DNA from: a virus
Length of the DNA stretch: 27,830 bases
Virus record (IMG/VR): IMGVR_UViG_3300043099_000752
Location: 1 to 27,830 of that record
Direction: 5' to 3' (one strand)
The notes beneath the pieces were generated by a model. The model was not told the DNA's origin, made no database searches, and was given only the letters and a program-made list of their open reading frames with translations. A program made the position numbers and the translations under genes. Positions 2,593 through 27,830 of the stretch are shown piece by piece (the stretch's first letter is position 1; every line of letters begins with the position of its first letter).

Positions 2593-2886
2593 ATGTATAA
2601 AATTGAGTTCGAATTTCAAACTAAATATGGTGTATTTAAAGATGCATTATATTTACCATATGATCATTCTTTTTCAAATGATGAAATCCAACAAATGAAG
2701 CAGCAAAGACTTGATAATTGGATTTCAGTCTTAGAAAATCCAACAATTAATCAAATCTCGGAAGTTCCTTTAATTACTGATGATATTGAAATTTCTGGCG
2801 AGGCTTATAAAAGACTAACAGGTGTTCCGCCAACCGGAGCTAAATTAATAGAAGTTAACGGTACATGGTACTTTAAGGTGCAATAA
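2593..2886 (+). CDS. Small conserved-type phage tail-region protein
   Basis: A 97-residue soluble protein with no signal peptide or membrane segment. The central part (SNDEIQQMKQQRLDNW) is helical and the C-terminus is beta-like, ending in ANGxWYFKVQ-type residues. I recognise the style of small proteins found among phage fibre genes, but no specific family. Its stop overlaps the start of the giant protein (TAATG at 2884-2888), so the two are likely translationally coupled, and it could act as a chaperone or adaptor for that protein. This partner assignment is inference from coupling only. Confidence 0.55.
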   Translation: MYKIEFEFQTKYGVFKDALYLPYDHSFSNDEIQQMKQQRLDNWISVLENPTINQISEVPLITDDIEISGEAYKRLTGVPPTGAKLIEVNGTWYFKVQ

Positions 2887-5800: not shown

Positions 5801-8117
5801 CTCGATTGGATTCGCTGCCACTAGCCTAGGTGAGTTCTATGCCGGTGCCAACAGCACAGGCACGGCGGCAGCGCCTGTCTACCGCACAGCCAAGCCAGCC
5901 GACAGCACACGCTACTGGGTTGGCGGCACAGGCAACTGGAGCGACACCGCTCGTTGGTCTACTGTGTCTGGTGGCGCTTCTGGCGCTTCTGTACCTCGCA
6001 GCCATGATGATGTTGTCTTTGACAGTTTGTCCAACACCACAGCCTACACAGCCACGGTGAATGCTGTCACTGGTGGCATTAGGATGAAGTCGTTGACCAT
6101 TGCAGGACCAGCGAGCGGCAACGTGACATTGGCAGGCAGCACTGCTATTGACGGCATTTACGGCAACGTGACGCTGCCTGCGACGGGGCTGACAAGGACG
6201 TACACAGGCGCTATTACTTTGTCGGGATCTACGTCTGGGTTGACGCTAACGACGAATGGTGTTGCCTTATCATCATCACTTGGAATCAACGGAGTAGGAT
6301 GTGAGTGGACACTTGGTAGTGCATTGAATAACAGCGCAGCCGCAGTTAGCGTCGCAAATGGGACATTTAATTGCAACACATATAATCTCACTGCTGGATC
6401 TTTTAGTTCTGATAATGAAAATCCAAGGAACGTTAATTTCGGATCCGGGACTATTACGTTGTCACTTGCAACAGCTTTTAGTTTTGGGACAAGTGAAATT
6501 TCTAGAGCAAATTTGACTTTTGCTTCAGGCACGGCTCAAATCAATTGCTCTAACGCAAGCCCCACTTTCTTCGGCAACAATCAAACCTTTTACAACGTTG
6601 CCTTCACAAGCACCTCTACAGGCACTGTAACTCTTAACGGAACCAACAGCTTTAACAATCTGTCCTTCACCGGCATCACCTCTGCTGTCTTTAAGAACAT
6701 AGTCCTTGCCGCCAACCAAACTGTCACAGGTACGCTCACTTTCTCCGCAGGAACTGACGCTACTATGCGGCATTTTTGCCGCAGCGACACCATCGGCACC
6801 ACCCGTACCATTACAGCCGCTGCTGTATCAATGACCGACGTTGACTTCTGCGACATCACCATTGCTGGTGCTGCTGCGCCTGCATCTGGTACGCGCATTG
6901 GGAACTGCAAAGGCAACTCTGGAATTACATTTACCGCACCAAAGACAGTATATTGGGTTGGACCGAGCGATTTTGTGTCTTGGAATGGAAATTATTGGGC
7001 CACTATGAGCGGTGGAACAGCAAATCTTGTTAATTTTCCTCTTGCCCAAGATACAGCAATTATTGATAATAATTCAGGAGGTGAAGCGGTAATAGCTTCA
7101 GGAACTTCGTATAACATTGGAACTTTTGACGCTTCTGCACGAACAAATAGCAGTTTGACTATTGCTCCACAATTCACAATACATGGCGATTGGATTACAA
7201 GTTCTAGAATATCTTATACAAGTTCAAGTATAAACGTAACTTTTGCTGGCAGAACAACGCAAAGCATTCGAACTTCAGGCGTTCCCTTTAGCACGTTTGG
7301 TGTTATTATTAATTCTCCTGGCGGATCAGTTGTATTGCAGGATGCCCTTTCTATAGGTACTGTCGGATCTTCCGGTATTACACTAACTGCAGGGACTTTG
7401 AATTGTAATGGTTACAACGTTTCATTCACCAGTGGAAATTTCACTTCCACAGGAGACGTTGCAAGAACTATTAATATCGGATCAGGAACCTTTTCAATAT
7501 TTACGCAAATTGGTGGGACACGTTGGAATATAACAGGTTCAAATGTATCAGTAATTGGAAATGGTGGAACCATTCAACTTAGCACAGCAAGTTTTGCATT
7601 TACAACAAATACTTTCGCTGGAAATAATCTAGATTATTCTAATATTAATCTCAAATTTGGTAACACAGGACCCATTGTAGTAACCGGTAATAATATATTC
7701 AATGAATTAATTATTGAGGGTGGTGGTCTTAATAATGGCGGTGGTGGAGGTGTAATATATCTAACTGGTAACAATACATTCACTAGGATCAGTAGCAATT
7801 TAAGTGGACTCAAAGCCCTTTCACTGGGGAATACAACACAAAAAGTCGGTACGTTTACTGCCACGGGTATTGATTCTAGCCGGGCTTTAACAATCACAGG
7901 TACCTCAGCAACATCACCAGCAACACTAATCCTTACTGGTTTAGGTCCGGTGTCTTCAGATTTCTTAACAATTACTGGGATCCGTGCATATCCTCCAACA
8001 GATAAGTGGTATGCAGGCACTAATTCAACTAATAATGGCACTTTAGGGTGGACATTTAAAACTCCACCTGTATCAGTTATCACATCTTTTGGAAATTTTT
8101 TAATGTTTTACAATTAA
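2886..8117 (+). CDS. Giant repeat-containing tail / receptor-interaction protein
   Basis: A 1743-residue protein, almost entirely Thr/Ser/Gly/Asn/Ala beta-forming sequence. Two copies of a YWVGGT module occur (near residues 4 and 1009: 'RYWVGGTxNW...W.T.SGGA.GASVP...DDV.F'), and three copies of a module 'DF-DI...G-SGITF...KTVYW' occur near residues 296, 634 and 1320. A short motif of the form GTF-x4-FNVTA recurs at least five times. This fits a parallel beta-helix or stacked beta-domain extended fibre on the tail surface. Base composition alternates sharply between GC-rich and AT-rich blocks inside the frame. Long frames on the other strand across this gene are shadows created by its composition. 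No catalytic motif is recognised; surface adhesion is inferred. Confidence 0.75.
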   Translation: MADRYWVGGTANWDGTAGTKWATASGGAGGASVPTSADDVFFTNLSTGTCTISTGNTGAKSINCTGFTGTLAGSSAITVSGSITLVAGMTVTYSGTLTLNATATLTTAGKTIGPLTINGAGITVTLGDALTSSGAITVTQGTFTTANFNVTAASFQSSNVNLRTINLGSSTVTLSLNIDFANATNLTFNAGTSQIIFTAASAFNSCGNQTFYNVSYTSTGANTHSIGGLATYNNLSITAPSSAGVRQITFDSRQTINGTLSTTGTAGNRRVWFRGVTYGLAQTLTINSAPSLTDADFRDIYVIGTAAPISGTRVGDLRGCRGITFSTPKTVYWNLAGSNNWSANGWSDTSTGTPSTDFFPLAQDTATFTNAGEVSQVVMNSAVPYTGTVDMSSRTTAMNLTINGFTIYGDWKNGSGTALSGSSELTFSGRNTQTITSAGKTFWNIVIDTLGGTVQLADALSIFTPPNFRLFINNGTFDTKNFNVTAAGLVSNNSNVRTIKLGSSTVTLTLGNFPNPTISLDSTNLTFDAGTSTIVSSADAPQLNLANQTFYNLSFTSAFVNSITITGSNIFNNLSVTAPSSAGLTVLPLSANQTITGTLTVAGASPVRRIFVCSNTLGTTRTLSVGTLSATDCDFRDIAITGAAAGSSLARAGNCGGNSGITFPAAKTVYWNLAGTQNWSATAWAPSSGGTPNINNFPLAQDTAVFDNTGGAGTVTIERAWNIGAFDASARTSAMTLNVTGGVLPRIHGDWKHGNISSSTTSKITFSKRGSQTITSNGNAFSCNVYIDSINGTVLLADAITLNGGNTELALESGTFDAVTFNVTTRVFISSFSATRTLKMGTGLWTLTAAQGNNVWNVNTSLTLIKGTANILLSANTTDSRTFIGGFKSYNKLTIGGTTGTSTTTIITNNQFTELASTKTVAHTIALGTTNQTFGKWTVTGTVGNVVTLTGTGTSHVLAGACTSGIDYLAMGSIGFAATSLGEFYAGANSTGTAAAPVYRTAKPADSTRYWVGGTGNWSDTARWSTVSGGASGASVPRSHDDVVFDSLSNTTAYTATVNAVTGGIRMKSLTIAGPASGNVTLAGSTAIDGIYGNVTLPATGLTRTYTGAITLSGSTSGLTLTTNGVALSSSLGINGVGCEWTLGSALNNSAAAVSVANGTFNCNTYNLTAGSFSSDNENPRNVNFGSGTITLSLATAFSFGTSEISRANLTFASGTAQINCSNASPTFFGNNQTFYNVAFTSTSTGTVTLNGTNSFNNLSFTGITSAVFKNIVLAANQTVTGTLTFSAGTDATMRHFCRSDTIGTTRTITAAAVSMTDVDFCDITIAGAAAPASGTRIGNCKGNSGITFTAPKTVYWVGPSDFVSWNGNYWATMSGGTANLVNFPLAQDTAIIDNNSGGEAVIASGTSYNIGTFDASARTNSSLTIAPQFTIHGDWITSSRISYTSSSINVTFAGRTTQSIRTSGVPFSTFGVIINSPGGSVVLQDALSIGTVGSSGITLTAGTLNCNGYNVSFTSGNFTSTGDVARTINIGSGTFSIFTQIGGTRWNITGSNVSVIGNGGTIQLSTASFAFTTNTFAGNNLDYSNINLKFGNTGPIVVTGNNIFNELIIEGGGLNNGGGGGVIYLTGNNTFTRISSNLSGLKALSLGNTTQKVGTFTATGIDSSRALTITGTSATSPATLILTGLGPVSSDFLTITGIRAYPPTDKWYAGTNSTNNGTLGWTFKTPPVSVITSFGNFLMFYN

Positions 8118-9137: not shown

Positions 9138-10718
9138 GTGGCCATTATAAATGCAGCACAAGCTCCTGTAAAAACCGTAGCGGATCCAAATGCCTCTTTT
9201 GAGTCCTTAAAACCGCTCTGGAACAGGAGCAGAGCGGTTTGTAGCGGTGAACGGTATGTAAAAGCATATGATAACTATCTTGATAGACTTTCTTTTACTA
9301 ATTTCTTAATACCATTCTCTCCCAAAATGTCCCAGGAACAGTATGAGTTCTATAAGGCAGAAGCAGAACTTCCTGGGATAACCTCTGAATTTGCTAAAAT
9401 GATTGTAGGTGGGCTTCTTAGAAAGAAGCCCTTACTCGAATTACCCGCATCAGTTCCTGCAGACGCTTATAATTGGATCATGAATGAGTTTGGAAAAGAT
9501 GACTCATCTTTGACAGCTTTTCTTGACTTAGCATTGTGGGAAGAAGTTCAAACAAGCAGAGCATGGATCTTTGTTGATTATCCTAATATTCCTGATGAAA
9601 ATAATCTAAGTGCAGATGATAAACTAAATTACAAACCTTACCCTATACTACAAAAAGCAGAATCAATTATAAATTGGAGAATTAGTGAAAATGAATACGG
9701 TAAATCAATACTTAACAGGGTAATTATTCGTGGTTTTAAAGAAGACTATTCTCAATATGAATTTCATCCTACTTACCGTGATACAGTATGGGTTCATGAA
9801 TTAGATAAAGATGGCTACTATCAAATACGTATTTTTCAAAAGAAGGCTGATACGACTCAACTGCCTGTCGTTGCAGGGCAACAAGTTTTAAGGCCTTCTG
9901 AACATAAAGATATTTTTGATCTTGTTGAGACAAAGACTAATATTCTTTTAGAAGGCGAACGTCTAAGATTTATTCCAGCATGGCCTCTTAATGGTTCTAT
10001 TGATCCAGTAGAACCAATGCTTTCTCAAATTATTGATAAAGAATTAAGCTTGTATAATAAAATAAGCCGAAGAAATCATTTACTTTATGGTGCTTCAACA
10101 TATACTCCGGTCATCATTTCAGACATGTCTGATGATGACTTTGATAAGTTAGTCAATAGCGGTTTAGGCACTTGGTTACGCCTTAGACAAGGCGATGATG
10201 CAAAAGTACTAGAGACTCCTACAGATGCTCTATCTGACATGGAAAAAGCTATTGCCAGCGGCATTGAAGAAATGGCAAAGCTTGGCATTAGAATGCTGAG
10301 CCCTGAAACATCTCAATCAGGCATTGCATTAGAAATTAGAAACGCTGCTCAAACAGCCAGACTTGGTACATTAAATAGCAAGATTAGCTCTATAATGTCT
10401 CAAGTGATTGCGTTTATGATAAGCTGGCGTTATTCGATTGGTATTAAAGCATCAGATGTGAAGTTTAGTTTATCTGATGATTTTAATCCAGTACCTCTTG
10501 GTGCTGATTGGTTGAGACTTGCCACAGAATGGTATCAACAAGGCTTAATTCCTAGATCTATTTGGATTATGTTACTCAAACAAAATGACTTAATGCCGCC
10601 CGATTATGACGATGAAGCTGGTAAACAGGAGATAACAGCTGATATGGAAGCTGTAATGAAGGCTCAAGCACCAAATCGGGTTCTTGAAGGTATTGCAAAT
10701 GGTGATGGAGTAGCTTAA
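9138..10718 (+). CDS. Portal protein (DUF4055-type)
   Basis: A 526-residue protein whose N-terminal third (W-x-RSRAVCSGERYVKAYDNYLDR ... FYKAEAELPGITSEFAKMIVGGLLRKKP) is the signature I know from DUF4055 portal proteins. Portals form the dodecameric ring at one capsid vertex through which DNA is packaged and ejected, and on which the MuF-type minor head protein binds. The later part contains the helical stretch ISRRNHLLYGAS and the SxSGIALEIRNAAQTARLG region expected near the clip/stem. The start is GTG at 9138; no in-frame ATG fits the N-terminal family pattern. It is the first gene of the head module. A strong hairpin lies at 9210-9240 inside its 5' coding region. Confidence 0.88.
   Translation: MAIINAAQAPVKTVADPNASFESLKPLWNRSRAVCSGERYVKAYDNYLDRLSFTNFLIPFSPKMSQEQYEFYKAEAELPGITSEFAKMIVGGLLRKKPLLELPASVPADAYNWIMNEFGKDDSSLTAFLDLALWEEVQTSRAWIFVDYPNIPDENNLSADDKLNYKPYPILQKAESIINWRISENEYGKSILNRVIIRGFKEDYSQYEFHPTYRDTVWVHELDKDGYYQIRIFQKKADTTQLPVVAGQQVLRPSEHKDIFDLVETKTNILLEGERLRFIPAWPLNGSIDPVEPMLSQIIDKELSLYNKISRRNHLLYGASTYTPVIISDMSDDDFDKLVNSGLGTWLRLRQGDDAKVLETPTDALSDMEKAIASGIEEMAKLGIRMLSPETSQSGIALEIRNAAQTARLGTLNSKISSIMSQVIAFMISWRYSIGIKASDVKFSLSDDFNPVPLGADWLRLATEWYQQGLIPRSIWIMLLKQNDLMPPDYDDEAGKQEITADMEAVMKAQAPNRVLEGIANGDGVA
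9210..9240 (+). repeat. 11-bp perfect inverted repeat inside the portal gene
   Basis: AAACCGCTCTG (9210-9220) and CAGAGCGGTTT (9230-9240) are perfect reverse complements around a 9-base loop, inside codons about 25-35 of the portal gene. The T-run after the stem is too short for a convincing intrinsic terminator. It may be an mRNA structure or protein-binding site. Confidence 0.6.
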
Positions 10719-12325: not shown

Positions 12326-15300
12326 ATGGCTAACAATGCGAATACAGACATATATGATAGAACCATTGATCGAGCGGCAATGATCCGCTTGTACGAAAAA
12401 AGATTAAATAACAAAGTATCACTTGTAATTGACGGCCACGAAGTAAGAGTGGATAAGCTAATAAGAGAAGCAAGTTTATCTCAAAAAGGCTTTGAAAAAC
12501 TTCGTGAAGCTATTGATCAAGAACTACAAAAAACTTATAGAGAAGCTTATAGCATTTCAAAAAGATCTTTACTAGACTTAGTATCAGATCAGCTCTCTTA
12601 TACCTATCAAACCATAGAAACATCTATGGGTAAGATTTGGAGAGCAGAACGACCTGCCAAAAGAGTTGCTGAAGAAATTGTTTTAGAAAGACCGCTTTTT
12701 AACGATAGAACTTTGTTACAAGGTTGGGGTGGAGTTGGTGAAAGTGAAAGAAAGAGACTAGAAGCAGTAATTAGAAAAGGTATTGCAGATAATAAAACAA
12801 TTGATGAAATTGCTTTAGATGTTCGTAAGAATAATATTCACAGCATTACCAGATCTCAGTCTAGAGCTTTAGTTGTAACAGCAGTTACATCCGTTACTGC
12901 ACAAACAGATCAAGAAGTCTATAAAGCTAACGAAAAAGCTTTACAAGGCTGGCAATATGTAGCTGTTTTAGATTCTAGAACCACTCCTTTATGTGCACAT
13001 CGTGATGGAAATATTTATCCGATAGATGATAGAAAACACTTACCACCTGCGCACTTTCATTGTAGATCTACAACAATACCTGTTTTTAAGAACTGGAATG
13101 ATATCTCTAAATTAGAAGGTGCAGCTCAAGTCCGCAAACGCAATATTGAAAACTTGACTAAAGAACAGATTGTATATTATGACGGTCAGACACCTTTAAG
13201 AGAGTCTTATAATACATGGTTAAGCAGACAATCCAAAGAGATCCAATTAAAACATCTTGGTGATTATCAAAAGGTTGAACTCCTTCGTAGCGGAGAGCTT
13301 ACTGTAGATAGGTTTACAGCACCAGACGGTGCATCTGTTGGAATCAAGGAGCTCAGAGCTTTAAGTGATAGTGGATACACCTTACCAAATGACACTAAAA
13401 AGTTTGCTTTAGCTAAAGAAAAGTTAGATGCATTACAGCTAGGTGCATCAACACCGGATGATTTTATTGGAAATGATGAATTAAAGAAACGCTTAATAGA
13501 TTATTATTTATTACAATCTGGTGAGCTTAATGGAACATTGTCTTTGACCAACTATAGAGGTACTCTATTAAATGTAAAAAGAGGTGTAAAAAATAGAGTT
13601 CTAGCTAGTCCTCCTCGTGAGGACCAACTCAAATTTAACCCTATAACTGGTAGATACGAAGATGTGCGTTTGTATCAACCAAATCCAGCTGTTTTAGCAA
13701 ATAATATTAGACTCATTGATGAAAGTGAAAAACTATTAGATAGAGATAAAGCCTTTATTAAAGATATTGTTGAATCTTTAGCAGATCGTATGAGTATAAA
13801 CGAACGTGCCGTAGTTGCTGATAACTTAAGAATCATTTTTGGCAGATACAGATCTAATAATCAAATTTGGTCTAACTTTAAAGCAGTTGTTCAAGGCCAA
13901 ATCAAGTTTGATGTTATGAACGTTTCTGATTTCGTAGAAACACAGCTGCGAAAAGACTCTGATTTTCTTAAAAAGCTTTTACAAGATAATTACATAGATC
14001 CTGTTTTGGGAAGCACTCAACTGCAAGAATTACATGACGAATTTATTGAAAATATTTTAAAGAAAAACAGATGGGAAGACAAAATAGCCCCTGGAATTGC
14101 TAATGAATTACGCAATGTTTTCGATTACAAAATTCCTTTAATAATTCGAAACAGAGTCTCTGACAGAGATCTACAACAATTTTATTTAAAGTTTGCTCAC
14201 AGGCTAAGCCTTGCTGATAGCCCAGATCGCGATCAATTTGCTGTTGCTTTAGGACGTGATTTATATAATCTTGCTAATATAAATGGTAATAGACGTAAAT
14301 GGTACGAGCTAGGGATGAGTCTTTTAGAGGCTAAGAACGTTAAAAAGTTCTTTGAAATTGAAACTTTTGGTGTTCAAAAAAGAAGAATGAAAAGTATGAT
14401 GAGTGGTGCTTATTTTGGGCCATATTATGATACATTATCTTATAATATTCGAATTGTAGATCCAAGAATACAAGAATACGCTAAATTAGTAAGAAAAGTT
14501 GAATTAGGATTACGTGTTTCTGTAACTGAAGACAAAAATAGATTAGTGTTTAGAGAAGGTTATAAAACGTATTTTATCGATCGTGGTATTTTAGGTTACG
14601 AAGACACTAGAATACCAATAACATCGACTTCTAGTTTCAGTGATTTTCCAGAAGAATTTATTGATAAAGACTTTGTGGAGGCTTTAAATTGGGCAGCTAA
14701 AAGTAAATATAAGATTGATAAAGATTATCTTAATTTTGTAAAAAAGATTTTATATTTTGAGGACGATAAAGGTCAGGCTAAGAAGTATAATGACTTAAAT
14801 GAATATCGTAAATATATGGCTTCTAGAGGTGACTCATATGAACGGATTAAAGCTATGGAGTGGCTTACAGCCGAAAATAAAGCTTTTAGCAACCATCCGT
14901 TTATAGACCATCGGGCTAGAATATATGATCGTGGTTTAATTGGTCCTCAATCAGGTGAAACTTTTAGACCATTTTTAAATACTGAAATTTCACGTAAATT
15001 TAGTGAAGAAGGTTTTTATAATTTGCAAGATCAAATTGGATCTTTTTTAGGTGGACTAAGTGATTACTTTGAAGGTAACTATAACTCATTGACTTTAACT
15101 GGAAGACAAAAAATTGCAGCAAAATGGCGTCCAGAAATGATAAAACTTGGAAATCATATGCTTAAAAGTAAGCCTAATGACATTAGAGCTATTTTAGAAT
15201 CAGAGATTTTTCAAAAAATCGATGGAGAAGATCTTAATAAATTCTTAAGATTAGCTCTAGAAACTGCCAAAATTGATAATTACCTGGAAGGCTCTTATAG

Positions 15301-15570
15301 CAGAAACTCTCTTGCTAGACTTAAAGATTATGATATTTCATTAGCACTCGAGCAAGATGCTTCTTCATCTGGTGCTCAGATTATTGCTTTAACAACTAGA
15401 AATAAACAATTGGCGGAACTGTCAAATGTCATTCCAACCAATCAAAAGAAAAGACTTTACGACGAAATCGCAGCTGCAACTTACAACGATCCTAGATTTA
15501 GACTTTTGAATCAAAAATTAGGACTTTCGGAAAAAGATTTACGAAAAGCTGCTAAAGCTCAAAACATGGT
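12326..15570 (+). CDS. MuF minor head protein fused to virion-type single-subunit RNA polymerase, exon 1
   Basis: Exon 1 encodes residues 1-1081 and two bases of codon 1082 of a 1542-residue protein (join 12326-15570 with 16435-17818). Residues about 140-255 are a MuF/SPP1-gp7 minor head domain: helical part, then VLDSRTTPLCAHRDG and PPAHFHCRST, the conserved Cys/His region. Residues about 260-800 are helical and unassigned. From about 840 it is a T7/N4-type RNA polymerase: DxxGR-like motif D861-HRAR with Ala for the usual Gly, motif A D1011-ASSSGAQ (metal-binding Asp), and the start of motif B, R1073-xxx-K1077. The start is fixed by RBS cggag. Unspliced mRNA stops at 15587-15589 after five intron-encoded residues, giving a protein without motif C. 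Role inferred: packaged with the portal and ejected to transcribe early DNA. Confidence 0.88.
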
Positions 15571-16434
15571 AGAATGTTGCCATGTATAAACACCGTGAAT
15601 TCAGGGAAACCCTTCTTAAAGGGCAATCCTGAGCCAAGCTTAGGTAGGGATACCTTTGAAGGTGCAACGACTAGAACATACCATCTAGACCAGATGATGA
15701 AGTTCGTAGGAATTATGCTAATTCCGAAGCGCGGTGACGTACTATCCTGAAAAGGTGACGACGTAAGATATAGTCTGATCTGTATAGTAATATACATTAG
15801 GAGTTAAAATGGATTACGAAAAGCATTATTTGGCTTTAATTGAAAAACACGGCTTCCAACTAAAGCCATTAAAAAGTTATTATGAGCGTCATCATATTAT
15901 TCCAAAATGTATGGATGGCGGTGACGATTCATCAAACTTAATTTATCTGAACGCGAGATGTCACTTACTTGCTCATTGGTTATTAATGAAAGCTTTCCCA
16001 GAAGTAAAAGGTTTAAAAGTAGCATATGCAACAATGTGCTCTAGAGATGGCGTTAAACTATCACCATTAATGTATCAATTAGCTAAAGAAGCTGTTAGTG
16101 GTGATAACTCATTACTAGCAAGAGCTGTAATTACTCCTTTAGGTGAATTCCCGACTGTTGCGGCTGCGGCAAAAGCACATAAAGTTGTTAAAGCAGTCAT
16201 TTCTAGAAAAGCTGGTAGCAAGAGTATATTACATAAAGGTTATTACTGGAAAGATGAAGTAATTCAAGGTAAAGAGGCAGATGGAAGAAACGCACATCAT
16301 TTACGAAAAGCAGTTTCCACTCCGTTTGGCATATTTGAATCAACGCGTGAAGCCGGTAGAATGCTTGGCATTAATCATTCTACTATCACTAAACGTATTA
16401 AACGTGGTGATCAAGGCTACTCCTATCTTTAATG
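15571..16434 (+). ncRNA. Group I self-splicing intron within RNA polymerase motif B
   Basis: Splice sites: exon 1 ends in U15570 and the intron ends in G16434. P1: exon ACATGGT (15564-15570) pairs with intron GCCATGT (15579-15585), closing with the expected U.G wobble at the cleavage site. P10: exon 2 GACGTTCT (16435-16442) pairs with AGAATGTT (15571-15578), including two G.U. Core: the P-Q segment GGCAATCCTGAGCCAAG (15622-15638), and P7 GACTA (15669-15673) with TAGTC (15771-15775), the latter within the S element AAGATATAGTC (15765-15775). P9-like hairpin TGTAT/ATACA at 15781-15796. Splicing joins GT|G as Val and restores R-x3-K-x7-YG exactly. The core is about 230 nt; an HNH gene fills the rest. 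Subgroup not determined. Confidence 0.93.
15809..16432 (+). CDS. HNH homing endonuclease encoded in the intron
   Basis: A 207-residue protein. Residues 24-59 form the HNH nuclease: YYERHHIIPKCMDGG ... NLIYLNARCHLLAHWLL, with H28-H29, N43 and H52/H56 as likely catalytic and metal-binding residues. Two C-terminal DNA-binding units of NUMOD/IENR type follow: VITPLGEFPTVAAAAKAH...GYYW (about 108-150) and VSTPFGIFESTREAGRMLGI then STITKRIKRG (about 168-200). The enzyme would cut intronless copies of the polymerase gene at motif B to spread the intron. Start ATG 15809 has RBS taggag just after the intron P9 hairpin. Its stop (16430-16432) lies two bases before the 3' splice site and is in frame with exon 2, so no read-through fusion forms. 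Confidence 0.93.
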   Translation: MDYEKHYLALIEKHGFQLKPLKSYYERHHIIPKCMDGGDDSSNLIYLNARCHLLAHWLLMKAFPEVKGLKVAYATMCSRDGVKLSPLMYQLAKEAVSGDNSLLARAVITPLGEFPTVAAAAKAHKVVKAVISRKAGSKSILHKGYYWKDEVIQGKEADGRNAHHLRKAVSTPFGIFESTREAGRMLGINHSTITKRIKRGDQGYSYL

Positions 16435-17818
16435 GACGTTCTATGGCGCTGGTGAAAGAACAGGCGCATTAAATGTTGAAGGTAAACTTGCAAAAATACT
16501 TGACAAACAAGAAAATGTTCTTGTAGTAAAAGCATCAGAAAGAGATCAAGTTTTAAATGAAATATCTGCTAGAATAGCAAGATACGAAAAGTTTGACGAA
16601 GAAACAGCAGAAGAATTACGGCAATTAAGACAAAATGTAAAAGATATCTTTAATAAAGGTTTAGACCCCGGAGATGACATCTTAGAACAACTTTATTTCT
16701 TAGATCCTAAGACTCGTGACTTTGTTGAAAAAATGACTAAATCTTATGATAAAGTAATTACTCCAGAGGACTTCAAAGCTATCGCAAAAATAATGAGTGA
16801 GTATCTTGGTGAACAAGTTCCAATTTTAAAGGATTTTACCAGATACTTCGGTAGATTAGCACAAGATTATTTAGCCAATGCAAAACCATCAAATAGTGAT
16901 TTTGATTGGAAAACAATAAGCAAAATTAAGCTTTTAGGCACCAAAAAGAAAGGTTATGTTTTACCTGATAGTGTTAGCAAACTTTTTGGCTTAAAAGCTG
17001 GTGAGCCACTTAGTGAAAAGATATTAAAAAGGTTTGGTTTTTGGAAGCCTAATGGGACTCTTAGTGAAATCATTTATGGTGTAGAAACTCCCGAAACAAG
17101 ACGAGTAGGTGCTAAGTATTTAAAAACAGAGTTTTTAGAATTAAAGACTATTACAGAATTTGAAGTGCTATATGCTAACAAGCTACCTAAGAGTTGGACT
17201 AATGTACCTTGGGTAAACTTTGATGGCAAAACAATTGAGCAGAACTTCACACAAACATTCGAAGAAAAACTAATTTACAAGGACAAATATGGAAACTGGA
17301 CTACAAATATCTTACAAATACCTCAGAAAACAGAAGCAACTTGGTGGCAACAAGTTATAAATAAGTCTGGAAAGATTAATGATATTGCTGATATAGGTAA
17401 AGCTAGAACAGCTTATGCCGTTAACGGAAACCATTCTAATGATGCTGTGATTGTAAAAAGATTTCATTTATGGGGTAAAGAAAATAAAATTCCAACTTCT
17501 ACTATTCACGATGCTTTCTTCGCGAATGCATCTGACATGGTTGAAGCCAGAAAAGGCTTGAGACAGCTATATGCTGAAATGCTTAAAAATAATGTAATTG
17601 TTTTAACTCTAGAAGAAATGCGCGCGAGAGGCCTCTCGAAAGAACTGTATGATAAATATTTAAATGAAGCAATTGAGTTAGGGTTAATACCTATTCCAGG
17701 AAAGTCACGTGTAGGTGGAAAGGTACTTAAGGAATCTGATATTTTAAATAGAGATGATATCCTAAAGAAAATACCAGATGGTTTTTCAAATGATTTTAGC
17801 TGGTATGGAGTCGGCTAA
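16435..17818 (+). CDS. MuF-RNA polymerase fusion, exon 2 (polymerase C-terminal part)
   Basis: Exon 2 supplies the last base of codon 1082 and residues 1083-1542. It begins TFYGAGERTG, completing motif B: Y1085-G1086 at the T7 spacing from R1073 and K1077 (Tyr639 equivalent, which helps select ribonucleotides and clear the active site). Motif C is TIHDAFFANASDM with the second metal-binding Asp at 1441; the stretch NGNHSNDAVIVKRF before it corresponds to the conserved N-x-x-H-S-x-D segment of T7-like enzymes. The distance from motif B to motif C (about 360 residues) is longer than in T7 (about 180) or N4 mini-vRNAP (about 280), so insertions lie between. The ATG at 16733 is internal, not a separate gene start. 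A terminator follows at 17841. Confidence 0.9.
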
Positions 17819-17840
17819 CTCAAACCCGTTAAATTAACCC

Positions 17841-17872: not shown

Positions 17873-17909
17873 GGTAGAAATTGTATTTCTACTAAATGAG
17901 TTGTACTCA
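17873..17909 (+). promoter_or_regulatory. Two 3-nt-loop hairpins before scaffold gene, candidate promoter region
   Basis: GTAGAAAT (17874-17881) pairs with ATTTCTAC (17885-17892) around loop TGT, and TGAGT (17897-17901) pairs with ACTCA (17905-17909) around the same loop TGT. They lie between the terminator and the RBS aaagg (17909-17913) of ATG 17922. N4 virion RNA polymerase promoters are known to be hairpins with 5-7 bp stems and 3-nt loops having a central purine, which both hairpins match in form. An mRNA 5' stability hairpin is the simpler alternative. Confidence 0.35.
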
Positions 17910-17921
17910 AAGGATTTAAAA

Positions 17922-18617
17922 ATGAGTGGCGAAAATTCAAATTTGGATGGTAACAACAACGAAGGTGGCAGTGCCGAAACCAAAGTTGAAAATGAGACTA
18001 ATCTAAATTTAAATGCTGATGAAACTGCAGAACCGATTAAGAAGCTTGTAGATGAAAAGGTCAAAGACGCTGTAAAAGATATTAAGGTAAAGCTTGAAAA
18101 AGCTTACGGTGCTCGTGACGAAGCTTTAAAAAAGTTAGCTGAAATTGAATCTTTTCGGAAGCAAGAAGAGGTAAAGCGCCTTCAGGAAGAAGGTAAACAC
18201 AAAGAAGCTTTAGAAATGCAGCTTGCTGAGGAAAGAGCACAGAAGGCTGCATACGAAAAACGTGTTATTGAGCTGACTCGTGACATGGAACTTCGTGGTG
18301 CGTTATCTAGCTACACCTTCAAAAATGATAATGCTTTTAATATGGCATATCGTGAAATTGTAGAACAGCTCGCACAAGACGACAAAGGTATCTGGAGACA
18401 CAAGTCTGGCGTGTCTTTAAGAGATTTTGTACGTCAGTTTGCAGAAGCTGAAGAAAATGCATTTCTTTTAAAGCCAAAGATTTCAAGCGGTTCTGGTGGC
18501 TCCCCAGCTAAGCCTAATCAAAGTGTGTCAAGTGGTCTAGAAGGTAAATCTATCTTTTCTTTACCACAGGACGAAGTTTTAAAAATGGCGAGAGAAGGAA
18601 GACTCGCCAAACGTTAG
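17922..18617 (+). CDS. Capsid scaffolding protein
   Basis: The start is chosen as ATG 17922 (RBS aaagg 8 bases upstream) and not the TTG at 17901 that lies before the RBS. The 231-residue protein has an acidic, Asn/Glu-rich N-terminus, a long coiled coil (about residues 45-130: KVKDAVKDIKVKLEKAYGAR ... LAEERAQKAAYEKR), a helical C-terminal half and a basic end (MAREGRLAKR) of the kind that binds the coat protein. This layout and its position directly before the major capsid gene identify a scaffold, which directs procapsid assembly and then leaves. No protease domain is visible. Confidence 0.85.
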   Translation: MSGENSNLDGNNNEGGSAETKVENETNLNLNADETAEPIKKLVDEKVKDAVKDIKVKLEKAYGARDEALKKLAEIESFRKQEEVKRLQEEGKHKEALEMQLAEERAQKAAYEKRVIELTRDMELRGALSSYTFKNDNAFNMAYREIVEQLAQDDKGIWRHKSGVSLRDFVRQFAEAEENAFLLKPKISSGSGGSPAKPNQSVSSGLEGKSIFSLPQDEVLKMAREGRLAKR

Positions 18618-18627
18618 GAATAAATAA

Positions 18628-19815
18628 ATGACAGTTCGTACTAATGTCGCAGGTGCCGACAATTTTGTTTTACAAGAAGCAATTAGCGCCTATTCTGACG
18701 AAGCTTACACAACTGCCAAGAAGCTTTCGGGCACTGGTATCGTTGGTAGCAATCCTCTTATCGACACTTCTACCGAAACCTTCGTTGGTCAGGTTCGTTG
18801 GTACAAGCCTTTGAATCCCACGATCAACGTTGCGTCTCTCACAGATGCAAGTGATGGTGCTGGTACGACTTATTCGTCTGAGTACGTTAATTATGTCAAG
18901 ACCGTGCGTACGCATGGTGCGACAAAGGTTAACATGCAGCAAGTTGTTACCCAGGTCGATGGTTTAGCTAAGATTGGCCGTGATTTCGGTGAAACACGTG
19001 CGCAAGACGAGCACAATGCCATCCTTTCGGTGCTTCGCGGTGTTGCTATCTCTGAAGCCTTAAATGGTTGCGCTGCTGGTTCAGGTCAAACTGGTCTTGG
19101 CGGTCAGAGCTTTGAGAATGATCCTACAAGCCGTCGTCACGGTTTCTATGTGGATCTTGGCTCAAGCAAGCCTGTTATCGACGCTACTGCTGCAGTTCAA
19201 GGCGCTGCTCGAGCTGAAGGCTTCCTTCGTGCCTTTGGCATGGCCTACAAGGACTATGAGCCTGAGTTTGCCTATCTGATCTGCTCGCCGGAAACTGTTG
19301 CTTCACTTCGTTCAGCCAATCTTGTTGATAGCACCACTGTTGTTGATGGTAATGTGACTTTCAATACCATCTTCCAGGGTAAGTTTAGACTTATTCAAAC
19401 AAGAGCTTCACAAGGTTTTAGCACAGCTGAGCTCACAAAGCTGAATACTGGTGCTGGTGTTGATATTGTTGGTACAAAGACTTCTTTCATTGTTCTTCCG
19501 GGTTCGCTCGCAATGGAGCCTCTCATGGTTCCTGATTCTGTCGAAATTGAGCGCAAGGCTGCTGCTTATAAGGGTGGTGGTACGACTTCAGTGTGGTATC
19601 GTTGGGGCTATGTGCTGCATCCCGCCGGTTACAACTGGTCTGGTTCGCAAGATGCATTCCCTGCTGACGCTGACTATCTGAAGGTCCAAGAAGGTTCTGA
19701 TTTAAAGGCTCTTACCGCTGTAGCATCAGCTACCTTGGCATCTACTTCCGGCACTTGGGCTCGTAAGGCTACATCGGCGCTTTCCTTAGGTATCCTGCCG
19801 GTATTCCATTCCTAA
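18628..19815 (+). CDS. Major capsid protein
   Basis: A 395-residue coat protein immediately downstream of the scaffold. The segments FVLQEAISAYSDEAYTTAKK, FVGQVRWYKPLNP, VNMQQVV and KIGRDFGETRAQDEHNAI are the recurring pattern of a coat protein family found with DUF4055 portals; an HK97-type fold is inferred. A C-terminal WYRWGYVLHPAGYNW stretch fits the conserved strand region. Base composition is visibly richer in GC and in C-ending codons than the neighbouring genes, as expected for the most highly expressed gene. It has no N-terminal prohead protease region. A minus-strand frame here is a shadow. Confidence 0.9.
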   Translation: MTVRTNVAGADNFVLQEAISAYSDEAYTTAKKLSGTGIVGSNPLIDTSTETFVGQVRWYKPLNPTINVASLTDASDGAGTTYSSEYVNYVKTVRTHGATKVNMQQVVTQVDGLAKIGRDFGETRAQDEHNAILSVLRGVAISEALNGCAAGSGQTGLGGQSFENDPTSRRHGFYVDLGSSKPVIDATAAVQGAARAEGFLRAFGMAYKDYEPEFAYLICSPETVASLRSANLVDSTTVVDGNVTFNTIFQGKFRLIQTRASQGFSTAELTKLNTGAGVDIVGTKTSFIVLPGSLAMEPLMVPDSVEIERKAAAYKGGGTTSVWYRWGYVLHPAGYNWSGSQDAFPADADYLKVQEGSDLKALTAVASATLASTSGTWARKATSALSLGILPVFHS

Positions 19816-23001: not shown

Positions 23002-26000
23002 ATGGCGTTGTTAGTTGAAACCAGATCAGATAGTAAGCAAGCGCAAGCTGATCTGAAGAAATTGAAAGATTCTGTAGAAAGTATACAGTCTAGTATAGAA
23101 AATACTACAAGCAAATTTTCAAATTTTGCAAAAGTAATTGCTGGTACGTTTGCAGCATTAAGTGCAGGTGGCGGTTTAATTAGGCTTTCTGACGAACTGA
23201 CCAATATTAGAACTAAGATTCAACTCGTAACTGATTCACAAGAAGAATTTAATAAATCACTAAAAGATGTAAAATCAATTGCAATATCAACTAGATCTGA
23301 TCTTAGTAGTATAGCAAGCTTATATTCTAAAGTTGCAAGATCAAGCAAAGAGTTAGGTATAGGTCAAGCAGATGTAGTTAAGTTTACGAGATTAGTTTCA
23401 CAATCTGTAGCGACTTCTGGTGGAAGTCTTCAGGAAACTAACGCTGCAATAATGCAGCTAGGCCAAGCACTTGCATCCGGTAGACTTGCTGGGGATGAAC
23501 TGAGATCTATATTAGAAAATGCACCTCCGCTTGCAAATGAGATTGCAAAAGGGTTAAATGTTAGTATTGGAAAACTTAGAGAATTAGGGGAGCAAGGCCA
23601 GCTTTCCGCATCTAAGGTTTTTCAAGCTGTTATTAAAAGACAAGCAGACATTGAAAAGCAATTTGGAAAAGTTAACATTACATTTGCTTCTGCGATTGGT
23701 AATCTCAAAACTTCTTTTTCAATACTGTTTGATGAAATAAAAGTTTCTTTATTAGGCTCAAGCAATTCATTTTCTAAATTTATAAATAATATTGCAGTAA
23801 ATATATTTGAATTAAGTTCTAATATTGATTTTCTGTTTTTAAAATTAAAGTTAGAATTTAAGTCTTTTGCATTGGCTACTTTAATTGGGCTATATAATTT
23901 ACAAGATGAATTTTTGAAACTGAAAGATATTGTTGGAAATTCATTCGAAAAATTATTTTCAAACTTGTTGCCTTTATTAGGCGCTGCAATAGTTTTTATC
24001 AATACAATTTTTACGAATGTAAAGAATAATTTAATTAATATTTTTGAAAAATTATATATAAAACTTCCTAAAATTGATGTAAATAATATTTTTCCAAGTC
24101 TAGAATCTGCTTTAAACACGGTAAAGTCTTGGGTAATTAAAGTTGAAAGATGGTTTTATTGGCTTTATGATAAAGTTATTGGAAACTCTTGGATACCAGA
24201 CTTAGTAAAGCAAACTACCGCGTGGTTAAGTCAACTTACGAAAAAGCCGTTAGATATCATAAAAGAATTTGTAACTAAAGCTAATTTACAATTTGCTAAT
24301 TTAAAGTCTACACTACCGTTTACGATTGCATTAGCAGGTTTGTTAAAATATAAAGGCGTTTTATTAAGTGTTTTAGGTATCGCTGGAACGTTAGCTGGTG
24401 TGTTGGGTCTTCTATCTTTTACAGATTCAAAAGGCATTACTAAATTAAATATAGATGCTAAAATATCTGAGGCTAGTGAGACTGTTTCGAAACATTCGAA
24501 TGATATTCTGAAAAAGATTTCAGAAAATACTAAAAAGTTTTTAGATTTTAATAAAATATTAGACAATATCCGAGTTATATTTGGAGTTCAGAAAACTCAA
24601 GCAACCCAAGTACCTAAAATAGAAGTACCTAAGTATGGCACTATGGATTCTGTGCTTGATATTCTCCCAGAAAATTTAAGAGTGCCTGTATTTACTCTTA
24701 TCGCCGGCTTATTTACATTTGCACTTACCAGTGCATTTAATAACCCTACAGTAAAAACTATTGTTTTTAGTTTGGCAACTAGTGCAGCAGCAATTTATGC
24801 GGCTAGATCGATTGATCCAAAACTAATTACAGAGTCATTCTTGTCCGGTATATTCAAAGTATTAAGTGTTCTTGAAAAAGGTATTTCGGCAATATTTTCC
24901 GGTAATGTTTTAAATGATCCTTTTGGGCTTATCACTTTACTAGCAAAAACTGCACTATTGTTTAAAGCGGGTAGAGAATACTTAGGCCGAGTCGCGACTG
25001 GCGCCTTAACAGCTCCTACAACAATAGCTGAGACTACTGTGAGTGGAATACAAGCTAGAATTCTTGAAAGAAGCGTTAATAATTTAAATAGATCTATTGC
25101 AGAAACTAATGTTAGAGCTCGTGCTGATCAAAATTTGAGAAACCAAGAGAGAATAAATAGAATACAAACACTAGCGCAAATGCGCGATTTAAATGGTAAT
25201 TTAGTGGGTTATCAAAGAGCTGTTTTAGCTGTTAGAACACGTGATACTCAAGCTTTTGGCACACAGCAAACAGCTAATTTGTTAAAACAAATAAATGCTG
25301 GACGTCAATTAGATGTACAAGCTAGGCAGAATACACGAAATGCAATAACCAATTTACAACAGAATATAACAGAATCTACGGGTCGTATCACAGAGCTTAG
25401 AAATAGACTTGCACAGCAAGGGACCGTTTTTAGACAGGGTGTTGTTAGTACCTCAGCAGGTATCGGTGGAACAATAGGTGGTTTTGCTGGCTTCCAAGTT
25501 GGCGTTGAAATTGCAAGAGGTATGACAGATGCCCCTGCATGGCAACGTGTCGGAGTTGTTATCGCTAGTTCAATGGCTACTCAAGCAGTTGGTTCAGGCA
25601 TTGGCGCGGCAATTGGGTTCGGATTTATTGCGGCATTATCTGGTATAGGTAAATTATTATCTAGTGCTCTCGGACTTGCAATAAGAGGCGCTGGTATAGT
25701 AGCAGCTTTTTTAGGTCCAATAGCAGCTGGTGGTGTATTACTCGCTGCTGCGTTGTATTCTGGATTCGAGTTATTTAAACTTTTACCAGAATCCTGGAAG
25801 GAAAGAATACGACAAATGGACTTTTTTGGATTCAATCGTCCAAACAGGCCCGGTGGACCTACTACGACAAGCGAAATGGGCGGTCAAACTACAGCCGACG
25901 CTGCGAAAAAAGGTCAAGCTGTTGTTACTTCAATTACTTTTGACGAACAAGTCAAAAAAGCTTGGACAGATATTTTAAATGAAGGTATTTATATTGCTTT

Positions 26001-27830
26001 AAAAAATTTATCGACTGAATTTGAAAAAAGAACAGGCACTAAAGATGCTGTTTTTACTTACTTTAAGACTAATATACTAAAAGCTTTACAAGAGGCTTTC
26101 GAACCTACTGCTATTGGCGGTATCTATACTGGTTTAAAAATACTTACGGAAAAGATTGAAAGACTATTTAAGAGTCCTTCAGTAAAAGTAGAGCCTACTC
26201 AAATATTAAGTCCTGAAGAAAATATTACGCCTCGTTCACAATCTGCTACACCTTCAGCAGTTGTTACACCTGCACCTGCTGCTGAATTAAAGAATTTAGA
26301 AGAACAGCGAGAAAAACTTTTTGAGCATAGTCAGAAAGTGCTTAAAGAAAGAAATGAAGAGATTATAAAATTTTGGCAGTTGCAATATGAAATTATAGCT
26401 AAAACTCGCATAGTTCCTCAAAAGGAGCTCGATGATTCTATTAGGCTTATCGCACATTGGCAAAATGTACTTAATAAAGTTAAAGAAAGTTTAGATGAAC
26501 TTACAAAAAGGGCTGATAATCTTAGTAAAACAGCTACTTTAAGGAAAGCTACTGGTGGTTGGATAAGAGGACCTGGGACAGGTACATCTGACTCTATCCC
26601 TGCAATGCTTTCTAATGGTGAATTTGTTGTAAATGCTAAAGATGCACAAAAGAACTGGAATATTTTAACCGCAATTAATAGCGGACATTCTATCGGTAGC
26701 TTTAGCGAAGGTACTATAAAAGCACAAGAAGTTACGGTAGCAAATACTGAGGAAGTTGGGACTTTCTTTAATGAAATCATTAAGAATTTTAAAAAATTCT
26801 TTGAATCTATTCAAAAAATTCTACCTGGCGCAGTTAAAAATGTAGAAGGACAACTAATTCCGAATACTGAAACAGGTACTAGCCCGACCTCCTTTTCTGA
26901 ATTAGCAAAGGCTAAAAATCAAGCGGATGTAATTAAAGATATTGTGTCTTTCTTAGAATCAGCAAAATTTTCTAATATAGATGCTAAAGCATTATCGAAG
27001 TTAACGCCAACAAGTATACAAAATCTTGCATATTTAATAGATAAGTTTAAAGAGGCAGATGCGGAACTTTCTAAAATTTCTAAGGAAAGAGGCCCAGAGT
27101 CATTCGGAGCCGCTTTAGCAAAAAGCATACAACAAGATGCGGCTGCAGCAATTTCAAAAACATTAAAAGAATCTAGAGTTACTTTTACAAGCCCCTCAGG
27201 AATTTCTAGCATAACTGAATCGACACCTTTCAAAATTGCTGATATTTTACCAATAATAAAAGAAGCTTTCCCTGAATTAGATATAAATGAAGACTTATTT
27301 AAAAAGATAGACGACCAATTAAGAAAAGATTTACTTGATTCTGCTTTAAAAATAAATAAACAACGTAAAGAGTTGCTCAATAAAACAGCTGGTAGCATTG
27401 AAAATGCGTCTGACCCGAGGGTGCTAGCCGGTCTTACTGAAGCTTACGAAAAACTTTCGACAAATATTAAAAACAGTTTGGAATTAGCTACTGAAAGGGG
27501 TGGTAAATCTTTAATTGATCGTTTAAATAAGTATAAAGTTCCTTTTGAACAATTTAGAGATATTTTCGAAAAAGCTAATATAAATATAAGCGCAAACTTC
27601 TTTGATACTTTAGATAGTAATATACAGGGCACATTAATTTCCTTTGCAGAAGTTTCCCTAGATTTTCAGAAGAAAATGTCAGATACAAATCTCAAATGGC
27701 CAGAAAGACAAATTATTGCAGAAGCTTTTAGAGTATTTAACTTAAGATTAAATGAATTTGTTGAAAGTATTAGACAAGGTGTTGATCCAAATGCAGTTTC
27801 AAAGCTAGCCGCAGAACTTAGTAAAGCCCA
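23002..27830 (+). CDS. Tail tape measure protein (3' end outside window)
   Basis: The frame runs from ATG 23002 (RBS tgagg) to the window edge, more than 1609 residues, and by protein length would set a long tail. Residues about 3-40 form a coiled coil (SDSKQAQADLKKLKDSVES). Residues about 120-215 match the tape measure N-terminal family: SGGSLQETNAAIMQLGQALA, LAGDELRSILENAPPLANEI, GKLRELGEQGQLSASKVF. Hydrophobic regions near residues 455-475, 565-600 and 850-920 would form membrane segments during DNA ejection. Near residue 1184 is a motif common in tape measures, GGWIRGPGTGTSDSIPAMLS then NGEFVVNA. No lysozyme or peptidase motif was noticed in the visible part. Frames on the other strand here are shadows. 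Confidence 0.92.
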   Translation, partial: MALLVETRSDSKQAQADLKKLKDSVESIQSSIENTTSKFSNFAKVIAGTFAALSAGGGLIRLSDELTNIRTKIQLVTDSQEEFNKSLKDVKSIAISTRSDLSSIASLYSKVARSSKELGIGQADVVKFTRLVSQSVATSGGSLQETNAAIMQLGQALASGRLAGDELRSILENAPPLANEIAKGLNVSIGKLRELGEQGQLSASKVFQAVIKRQADIEKQFGKVNITFASAIGNLKTSFSILFDEIKVSLLGSSNSFSKFINNIAVNIFELSSNIDFLFLKLKLEFKSFALATLIGLYNLQDEFLKLKDIVGNSFEKLFSNLLPLLGAAIVFINTIFTNVKNNLINIFEKLYIKLPKIDVNNIFPSLESALNTVKSWVIKVERWFYWLYDKVIGNSWIPDLVKQTTAWLSQLTKKPLDIIKEFVTKANLQFANLKSTLPFTIALAGLLKYKGVLLSVLGIAGTLAGVLGLLSFTDSKGITKLNIDAKISEASETVSKHSNDILKKISENTKKFLDFNKILDNIRVIFGVQKTQATQVPKIEVPKYGTMDSVLDILPENLRVPVFTLIAGLFTFALTSAFNNPTVKTIVFSLATSAAAIYAARSIDPKLITESFLSGIFKVLSVLEKGISAIFSGNVLNDPFGLITLLAKTALLFKAGREYLGRVATGALTAPTTIAETTVSGIQARILERSVNNLNRSIAETNVRARADQNLRNQERINRIQTLAQMRDLNGNLVGYQRAVLAVRTRDTQAFGTQQTANLLKQINAGRQLDVQARQNTRNAITNLQQNITESTGRITELRNRLAQQGTVFRQGVVSTSAGIGGTIGGFAGFQVGVEIARGMTDAPAWQRVGVVIASSMATQAVGSGIGAAIGFGFIAALSGIGKLLSSALGLAIRGAGIVAAFLGPIAAGGVLLAAALYSGFELFKLLPESWKERIRQMDFFGFNRPNRPGGPTTTSEMGGQTTADAAKKGQAVVTSITFDEQVKKAWTDILNEGIYIALKNLSTEFEKRTGTKDAVFTYFKTNILKALQEAFEPTAIGGIYTGLKILTEKIERLFKSPSVKVEPTQILSPEENITPRSQSATPSAVVTPAPAAELKNLEEQREKLFEHSQKVLKERNEEIIKFWQLQYEIIAKTRIVPQKELDDSIRLIAHWQNVLNKVKESLDELTKRADNLSKTATLRKATGGWIRGPGTGTSDSIPAMLSNGEFVVNAKDAQKNWNILTAINSGHSIGSFSEGTIKAQEVTVANTEEVGTFFNEIIKNFKKFFESIQKILPGAVKNVEGQLIPNTETGTSPTSFSELAKAKNQADVIKDIVSFLESAKFSNIDAKALSKLTPTSIQNLAYLIDKFKEADAELSKISKERGPESFGAALAKSIQQDAAAAISKTLKESRVTFTSPSGISSITESTPFKIADILPIIKEAFPELDINEDLFKKIDDQLRKDLLDSALKINKQRKELLNKTAGSIENASDPRVLAGLTEAYEKLSTNIKNSLELATERGGKSLIDRLNKYKVPFEQFRDIFEKANINISANFFDTLDSNIQGTLISFAEVSLDFQKKMSDTNLKWPERQIIAEAFRVFNLRLNEFVESIRQGVDPNAVSKLAAELSKA

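Follow-up and report, generated by a model that had tools for sequence, protein, structure and literature searches.

A MuF minor head protein fused to a T7-fold RNA polymerase is a candidate virion polymerase of long-tailed phages

Why would a long-tailed phage encode an RNA polymerase as part of a protein of its head? The question is raised by the window analyzed here, a complete 27.8-kb IMG/VR record (IMGVR_UViG_3300043099_000752; 27,830 nucleotides) containing a siphovirus head-tail block of portal, MuF-RNAP, scaffold, major capsid, adaptor, terminator, major tail protein, and tape measure genes. An earlier note, made from the sequence alone, had read the locus as a candidate packaged polymerase in a siphovirus, and the siphovirus setting is borne out by this block. 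The portal protein (9138..10718; PHROG 145, E = 6e-57), the expected docking partner of MuF, the scaffolding protein (17901..18617; PHROG 206, E = 4e-6), the major capsid protein (18628..19815; PHROG 247, E = 8e-17), and the tape measure protein (23002..27828; PHROG 339, E = 2e-66) are all encoded on the plus strand. The tape measure gene, which extends past the window end and encodes 0 cysteines in 1609 residues, indicates that the phage has a long tail. A 1743-residue ORF (2886-8117) between tail-fibre-like genes and the portal gene contains 16 cysteines, unlike its neighbors, and has no match in Pfam or PHROGs.

The focal gene is broken by a group I intron, and joining its exons gives an in-frame product of exactly 1542 residues, the single spliced protein that had been proposed. 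Exon 1 (12326..15570, plus strand) encodes the MuF domain (about residues 1-346), a conserved linker (about 346-634), and the RNAP part with DxxxR (D861), D1011 of motif A, and the larger share of motif B; exon 2 (16435..17818, plus strand) encodes what remains of the RNAP, including Y1085 from motif B and all of motif C (H1440-D1441). The intron (about 15571..16434, plus strand) lies within motif B, between V1082 and T1083, as placed by Rfam RF00028 and by intron-free relatives. The RF00028 match covers 15521-15797 (75.8 bits, E = 8e-18), and the intron ends were set from the terminal G and from the P1 helix, in which exon ACAUGGU pairs with GCCAUGU and a U-G pair closes the helix. Within the intron, an HNH/NUMOD1 homing endonuclease of 207 residues is encoded at 15809..16432 on the plus strand (Pfam HNH, E = 2e-5; NUMOD1, E = 1e-5; both above cut-off). 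The splice junction and the fusion are confirmed by 15 intron-free relatives, in which NMV-TFYG runs continuously over the predicted junction and the whole protein is encoded as a single ORF of about 1540 codons. Group I introns also occupy several sites of the gene in the relatives L030, L034, L037, L038, L039, L020, and L042. Together with the window, the sites fall at about residues 1045, 1078, 1082, and 1413, within conserved polymerase motifs or close to them, and the MuF-RNAP gene is an intron hot spot.

Both halves of the product are recognizable by profile search. The MuF core with its Cys/His site (12752..13093, plus strand; about residues 143-256) contains a Pfam Phage_Mu_F match (PF04233) at residues 145-251 (E = 1e-13, above the gathering cut-off), the MuF part matches PHROG 241 (E = 3e-64), and the portal gene lies upstream. 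At the other end, Pfam RNA_pol matches residues 1380-1482 (E = 9e-11, above the gathering cut-off). The motifs of single-subunit RNA polymerases (ssRNAPs) occur in order and at the positions assigned to them before: D861 (DxxxR), D1011 (motif A), R1073/K1077/Y1085 (motif B), and H1440-D1441 (motif C). We compared 127 full-length relatives that form two clades, with at least 56% identity to the relative L004 inside its clade, about 30% between clades, and values down to 29%. None of the 127 departs from the DxxxR motif, the motif A Asp, the motif B Lys and Tyr, the His-Asp of motif C, or the Cys/His/Cys of the MuF site. The motif B Arg is the sole variable residue among those checked in these 127 proteins, being Ala in most of the DSS3-like clade.

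Structure prediction leads to the same identification, placing the motifs in a single polymerase active site. An AlphaFold model of the last 904 residues of L004, built on a 77-row alignment, has a pLDDT of 88 and a pTM of 0.86. Among the PDB matches listed for this model, all are T7 and mitochondrial RNAPs, the best being T7 RNAP (E = 3e-16), with TM values of about 0.4-0.56 for the best matches, and its matches among viral models are a 1463-residue homolog of DSS3_VP1 length and many phage ssRNAPs. An earlier run on a shallow alignment reached a pLDDT of 58, and its matches with E below 0.001 were all ssRNAPs. Estimates of dN/dS in the RNAP part range from 0.025 to 0.13 for the pairs with a usable estimate, some pairs being saturated, and this part is under purifying selection. 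The weak sequence similarity to known ssRNAPs outside the motifs might suggest a degenerate or DNA-binding relic that persists on a head protein with no catalytic role. Catalytic residues that are invariant in all 127 proteins, the confidently predicted RNAP fold, and the low dN/dS values make such a relic hardly credible. Taken from motifs and models, the protein is a single-subunit T7-fold RNA polymerase fused to MuF, with RNA synthesis as its predicted activity.

The fusion is widespread. A search of phage databases, which the earlier note had suggested, recovered at least about 580 confirmed relatives from IMG/VR in each of two scans. In GenBank, homologs of the whole fusion occur in EBPR siphovirus 1 (JF412302; 61% identical) and in the roseophages DSS3_VP1 and DSS3_PM1 (Naomviridae; 30%), where the annotations read head, minor head, or hypothetical protein and leave the polymerase unmentioned. 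As delimited by these sequence matches, the MuF-RNAP phages are a large, mostly unrecognized long-tailed group that includes cultured phages as well as hundreds of members from metagenomes. A prophage origin was considered and found unlikely, with a search of bacterial genome contigs returning only two contigs (one MAG). The 74,179-base contig L127 (JAOUJT010000001.1), assigned to a gammaproteobacterial MAG (GTDB), carries a MuF-RNAP, equals in length the IMG/VR phage contig behind L081, and is probably a misbinned phage. A lytic lifestyle would agree with the absence of the fusion from other bacterial genomes.

A possible function is suggested by the carrier. In SPP1, a few copies of the MuF protein gp7 enter the procapsid by binding the portal; gp7 supports infection, and of the virions that lack it only about 25% are infectious (PMC6316719). 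Toxins fused to MuF are thought to be delivered through this capsid route (PMC6316719, PMC5512222). By analogy with gp7, the MuF part would bind the portal inside the procapsid, and a few copies of the T7-fold polymerase would thereby be packaged. At infection, the MuF-RNAP would exit along the long tail together with the DNA, in a probably unfolded state, and refold in the cell, where it would transcribe early genes, including that of a second polymerase (RNAP2), probably from a GCG-AAAA-GTATCTTATATGA motif. The intracellular RNAP2 would then take over transcription of the replication and late genes, MuF-RNAP for new virions among them, and would probably use CCCGTTAAATTAACCC. We consider it likely, with a probability of roughly 0.83, that the gene product is a virion RNA polymerase with MuF, a minor head protein, as its carrier, and the fusion to a portal-bound carrier within the head operon supports this reading. 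Among the points against it, a polymerase of about 900 residues must traverse the siphovirus tail tube, and the motif B Arg has been replaced in most of the DSS3-like clade.

The early region and the RNAP2 gene lie outside the 27.8-kb window, and the points that concern the second polymerase and the early motifs rest on relatives. A separate T7-like RNAP gene is present in 11 of 11 near-complete relatives, which supports the virion-polymerase reading. Its neighbors in the one genome examined are genes for DNA polymerase A, an exonuclease, a Toprim-DnaB helicase, and ribonucleotide reductase. The N4 genome likewise has a second phage ssRNAP, and the two-polymerase plan of N4 and P23-45 is also that of these 11 relatives. 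MuF-RNAP and RNAP2 match each other in a profile comparison (E = 6e-6), and in the fold search the RNAP2s of related phages precede other T7-type enzymes by a small margin only; the polymerase of the fusion may have arisen by duplication of RNAP2 or may share an ancestor with the N4 vRNAP. The EBPR siphovirus 1 record contains no RNAP2 gene, which counts against the model; GenBank calls this record partial, and an ESV1 genome is listed as complete (PMC3097231).

Exact k-mer repeats in intergenic DNA yielded two promoter-like motifs common to genomes of 36-46% G+C. Motif 1, CCCGTTAAATTAACCC, occurs in about 4 to 7 copies per genome, almost all in the sense orientation and often directly 3' of the MuF-RNAP gene. 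In the window, an exact copy at 17825..17840 (plus strand) precedes the scaffold and capsid genes, and 42 of 70 relatives have the motif at the equivalent place (≤3 mismatches). Motif 2, YGCGsAAAAnnnGGTATCTTATATGAw, is distributed differently: 13 of its 18 sense copies lie within 4 kb upstream of the RNAP2 gene, mainly at 1-4 kb (5% expected, P = 2e-13), compared with just 5 of 47 copies of motif 1 in that zone (Fisher P = 3e-6). Outside the discovery set, all five further genomes with RNAP2 have an exact motif 2 about 1.4-3.6 kb upstream of this gene, whose start was estimated from the domain match, and a reversed control pattern gave 0 matches in the same five genomes. The existence of two motif classes, one of them concentrated upstream of RNAP2, supports a virion polymerase, and we infer that motif 2 would serve the virion enzyme and motif 1 RNAP2. 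Neither a good motif 2 copy in G003 nor a second motif class in DSS3_VP1 was found, both of which count against the model; the examined part of the EBPR siphovirus 1 record also contains no motif 2. Also against the model, motif 2 partly resembles a -35/-10 promoter (TTGCGN, 16 nt, TATGAW), so the host RNAP could read it.

DSS3_VP1 has a T7-like ATAGGGTGCGTTAAAGAGGGG series with a CGTTAAA core in common with motif 1; about 13 T7-promoter-like repeats, roughly ATAGGKTRCGTTAAAGAGGGG, occur in this genome (W01) at 2250, 2341, 6588, 7416, 19210, 19245, 19334, 29404, 45934, 46401, 46559, 55106, and 59204. Hairpins after motifs 1 and 2, in the style of N4 vRNAP promoters, were convincing by eye and were discarded, their folding energies being no better than those of upstream controls.

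The placement of motif 2 also bears on the possibility that the polymerase is packaged but mainly mechanical, gripping the first DNA end beside the portal and pulling the genome in by transcribing, with gene expression secondary. Transcription-driven genome entry is known for T7, and MuF, judging from SPP1, would put the polymerase beside the exit channel. Early-type motifs ahead of the RNAP2 gene nevertheless favor ordinary early transcription too, no observation here tells a mechanical role apart from the virion-polymerase reading, and we regard a mainly mechanical enzyme as very unlikely.

A further feature of the fusion is its cysteine content. Of 127 proteins about 1,500 residues long, 124 contain two cysteines and no more, both of them at the MuF site, and the polymerase part is cysteine-free in 125 of the 127. 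RNAP2 of the same genomes has 7-10 cysteines (the G006 gene is split), replication proteins mostly contain 1-2.5%, and the tape measures have 0. The N4 vRNAP likewise has 0 cysteines in 3500 residues, and the virion RNAPs of N4, DSS3P2, LIT1, and S6 together have 0 in 14,071. A polymerase part that is cysteine-free as in these N4-type enzymes, against the 7-10 of RNAP2, supports the virion-polymerase reading. We take the pattern as support and not as proof, since low cysteine content is partly general to virion proteins (the N4 capsid protein has 0 in 401 residues) and since both RNAPs of the thermophile phage P23-45 have 0 cysteines, with no contrast between virion and non-virion enzyme. The pattern nonetheless suggests a search rule, in which the lack of cysteines would flag a polymerase as possibly ejected from virions.

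These data also speak to a late-phase enzyme, which would transcribe late genes in the producing cell and would either reach the head merely through its MuF part or be cleaved from MuF before packaging. The gene does sit in the late head operon, and a hypothetical cut by the head-maturation protease could separate the domains. Every near-complete relative, however, already has a dedicated second ssRNAP, a motif 1 site already stands ahead of the late capsid genes, and a free late enzyme would need neither a conserved fusion nor a cysteine-free polymerase domain. We regard a late-phase role as unlikely. The proposal of a packaged polymerase, in turn, is strengthened by RNAP2, by the existence of two classes of motif, and by the cysteine contents, along with an exchange of MuF cargo described below, and the presence of the enzyme in virions is what these features predict.

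The closest precedents are the N4 vRNAP, which is of the same enzyme class on another carrier, and P23-45, a siphovirus with a two-barrel RNAP on its tape measure. Like MuF-RNAP, the N4-type vRNAPs (Schitoviridae gp50) are single-subunit T7-fold enzymes encoded among virion genes, and those of N4, DSS3P2, LIT1, and S6 are cysteine-free throughout. They differ in being podovirus proteins of about 3,400-3,600 residues that bring carrier regions of their own at both the N and the C terminus, whereas MuF-RNAP has about 1,500 residues, a MuF carrier, and a long-tailed phage. The N4-type family is defined by a length of about 2,800-3,800 residues (PMC10654107) and by the N4 terminal regions, and the window protein has 1542 residues and a MuF N-terminus. 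In the fold search, N4-type vRNAPs rank below T7-type enzymes, and a profile comparison of MuF-RNAP with a single N4 sequence gave no match. In its mode of action MuF-RNAP would resemble the N4 vRNAP; by length and carrier it falls outside the N4-type proteins, and in these comparisons it shows no special affinity to the N4 vRNAPs. A survey of N4-like enzymes dropped proteins under 2,500 residues (PMC10654107), a filter that would exclude the MuF-RNAP family.

The earlier note knew of no well-characterized siphovirus system built this way. That view stands for a MuF carrier with a T7-class enzyme, but fusion of a virion RNAP to another virion protein has a precedent in a long-tailed phage (PMC10770324). 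Thermus phage P23-45, like the MuF-RNAP phages, is a siphovirus with an RNAP (gp96) fused to a virion protein, a second nvRNAP (gp64), and two promoter motif classes; its vRNAP is instead a two-barrel enzyme of cellular type, unrelated in fold to MuF-RNAP and carried on the tape measure and not on a head protein (PMC10770324). The combination of carrier and enzyme class is the new part. As for the carrier, SPP1 gp7, Mu gp30, and polyvalent MuF proteins share with MuF-RNAP a MuF domain, a gene beside the portal gene, and C-terminal cargo (PMC6316719, and the considered sections of PMC5512222). Those sections describe toxins or modifying enzymes as MuF cargos in place of the RNAP seen here, confine N4-like virion RNAPs to N4-like phages and prophages, and leave MuF-RNAP fusions unmentioned (PMC5512222). 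We found no published MuF-RNAP fusion in the literature searched, which left out most subscription papers. If the virion-polymerase reading is true, this would be, as far as our searches reached, the first T7-class virion polymerase outside N4-like phages, and also the first that a long-tailed phage carries on a head protein. It would offer a second siphovirus route to host-independent early transcription beside that of P23-45 and a new ssRNAP pair with candidate promoters, and would open to experiment the passage of large enzymes through a siphovirus tail.

The Pelagibacter phage Kolga has, at the same place, a related MuF protein (gp59; L263:19992-21893) with an HExxH metallopeptidase-like C-terminal domain and no RNAP; it also has a relative of RNAP2. 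With this domain in place of the RNAP, the cargo on MuF appears exchangeable, and such an exchange also supports a packaged polymerase. Somewhat better than an even chance can be given to a broader proposal in two joined parts: that these proteins are an independently evolved class of virion RNAP, arising when an ssRNAP was put on MuF in a long-tailed lineage with T7-like transcription and replication and conferring independence from the host RNAP, and that MuF-RNAP is a platform for further injected effectors, such as GNAT acetyltransferases and others.

In some relatives the polymerase is interrupted by extra domains, either shortly ahead of motif A or beyond motif B (L037:232-651, L041:7776-9014, L027:10994-11476, L034:4652-5380, and L043:11324-12016). 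Two of them hold GNAT acetyltransferase domains above the Pfam cut-off and the others match nothing known, and the idea that the inserts near motif A are inteins was dropped for most of them. The inserted domains are possibly further injected effectors. At the second MuF cysteine of L041, an insert of 340 residues (L041:4527-5600) is intein-like (CYDNDTKILTRDGFK ... IIWGSN-C), with a weak Pfam Hint match (E = 0.09).
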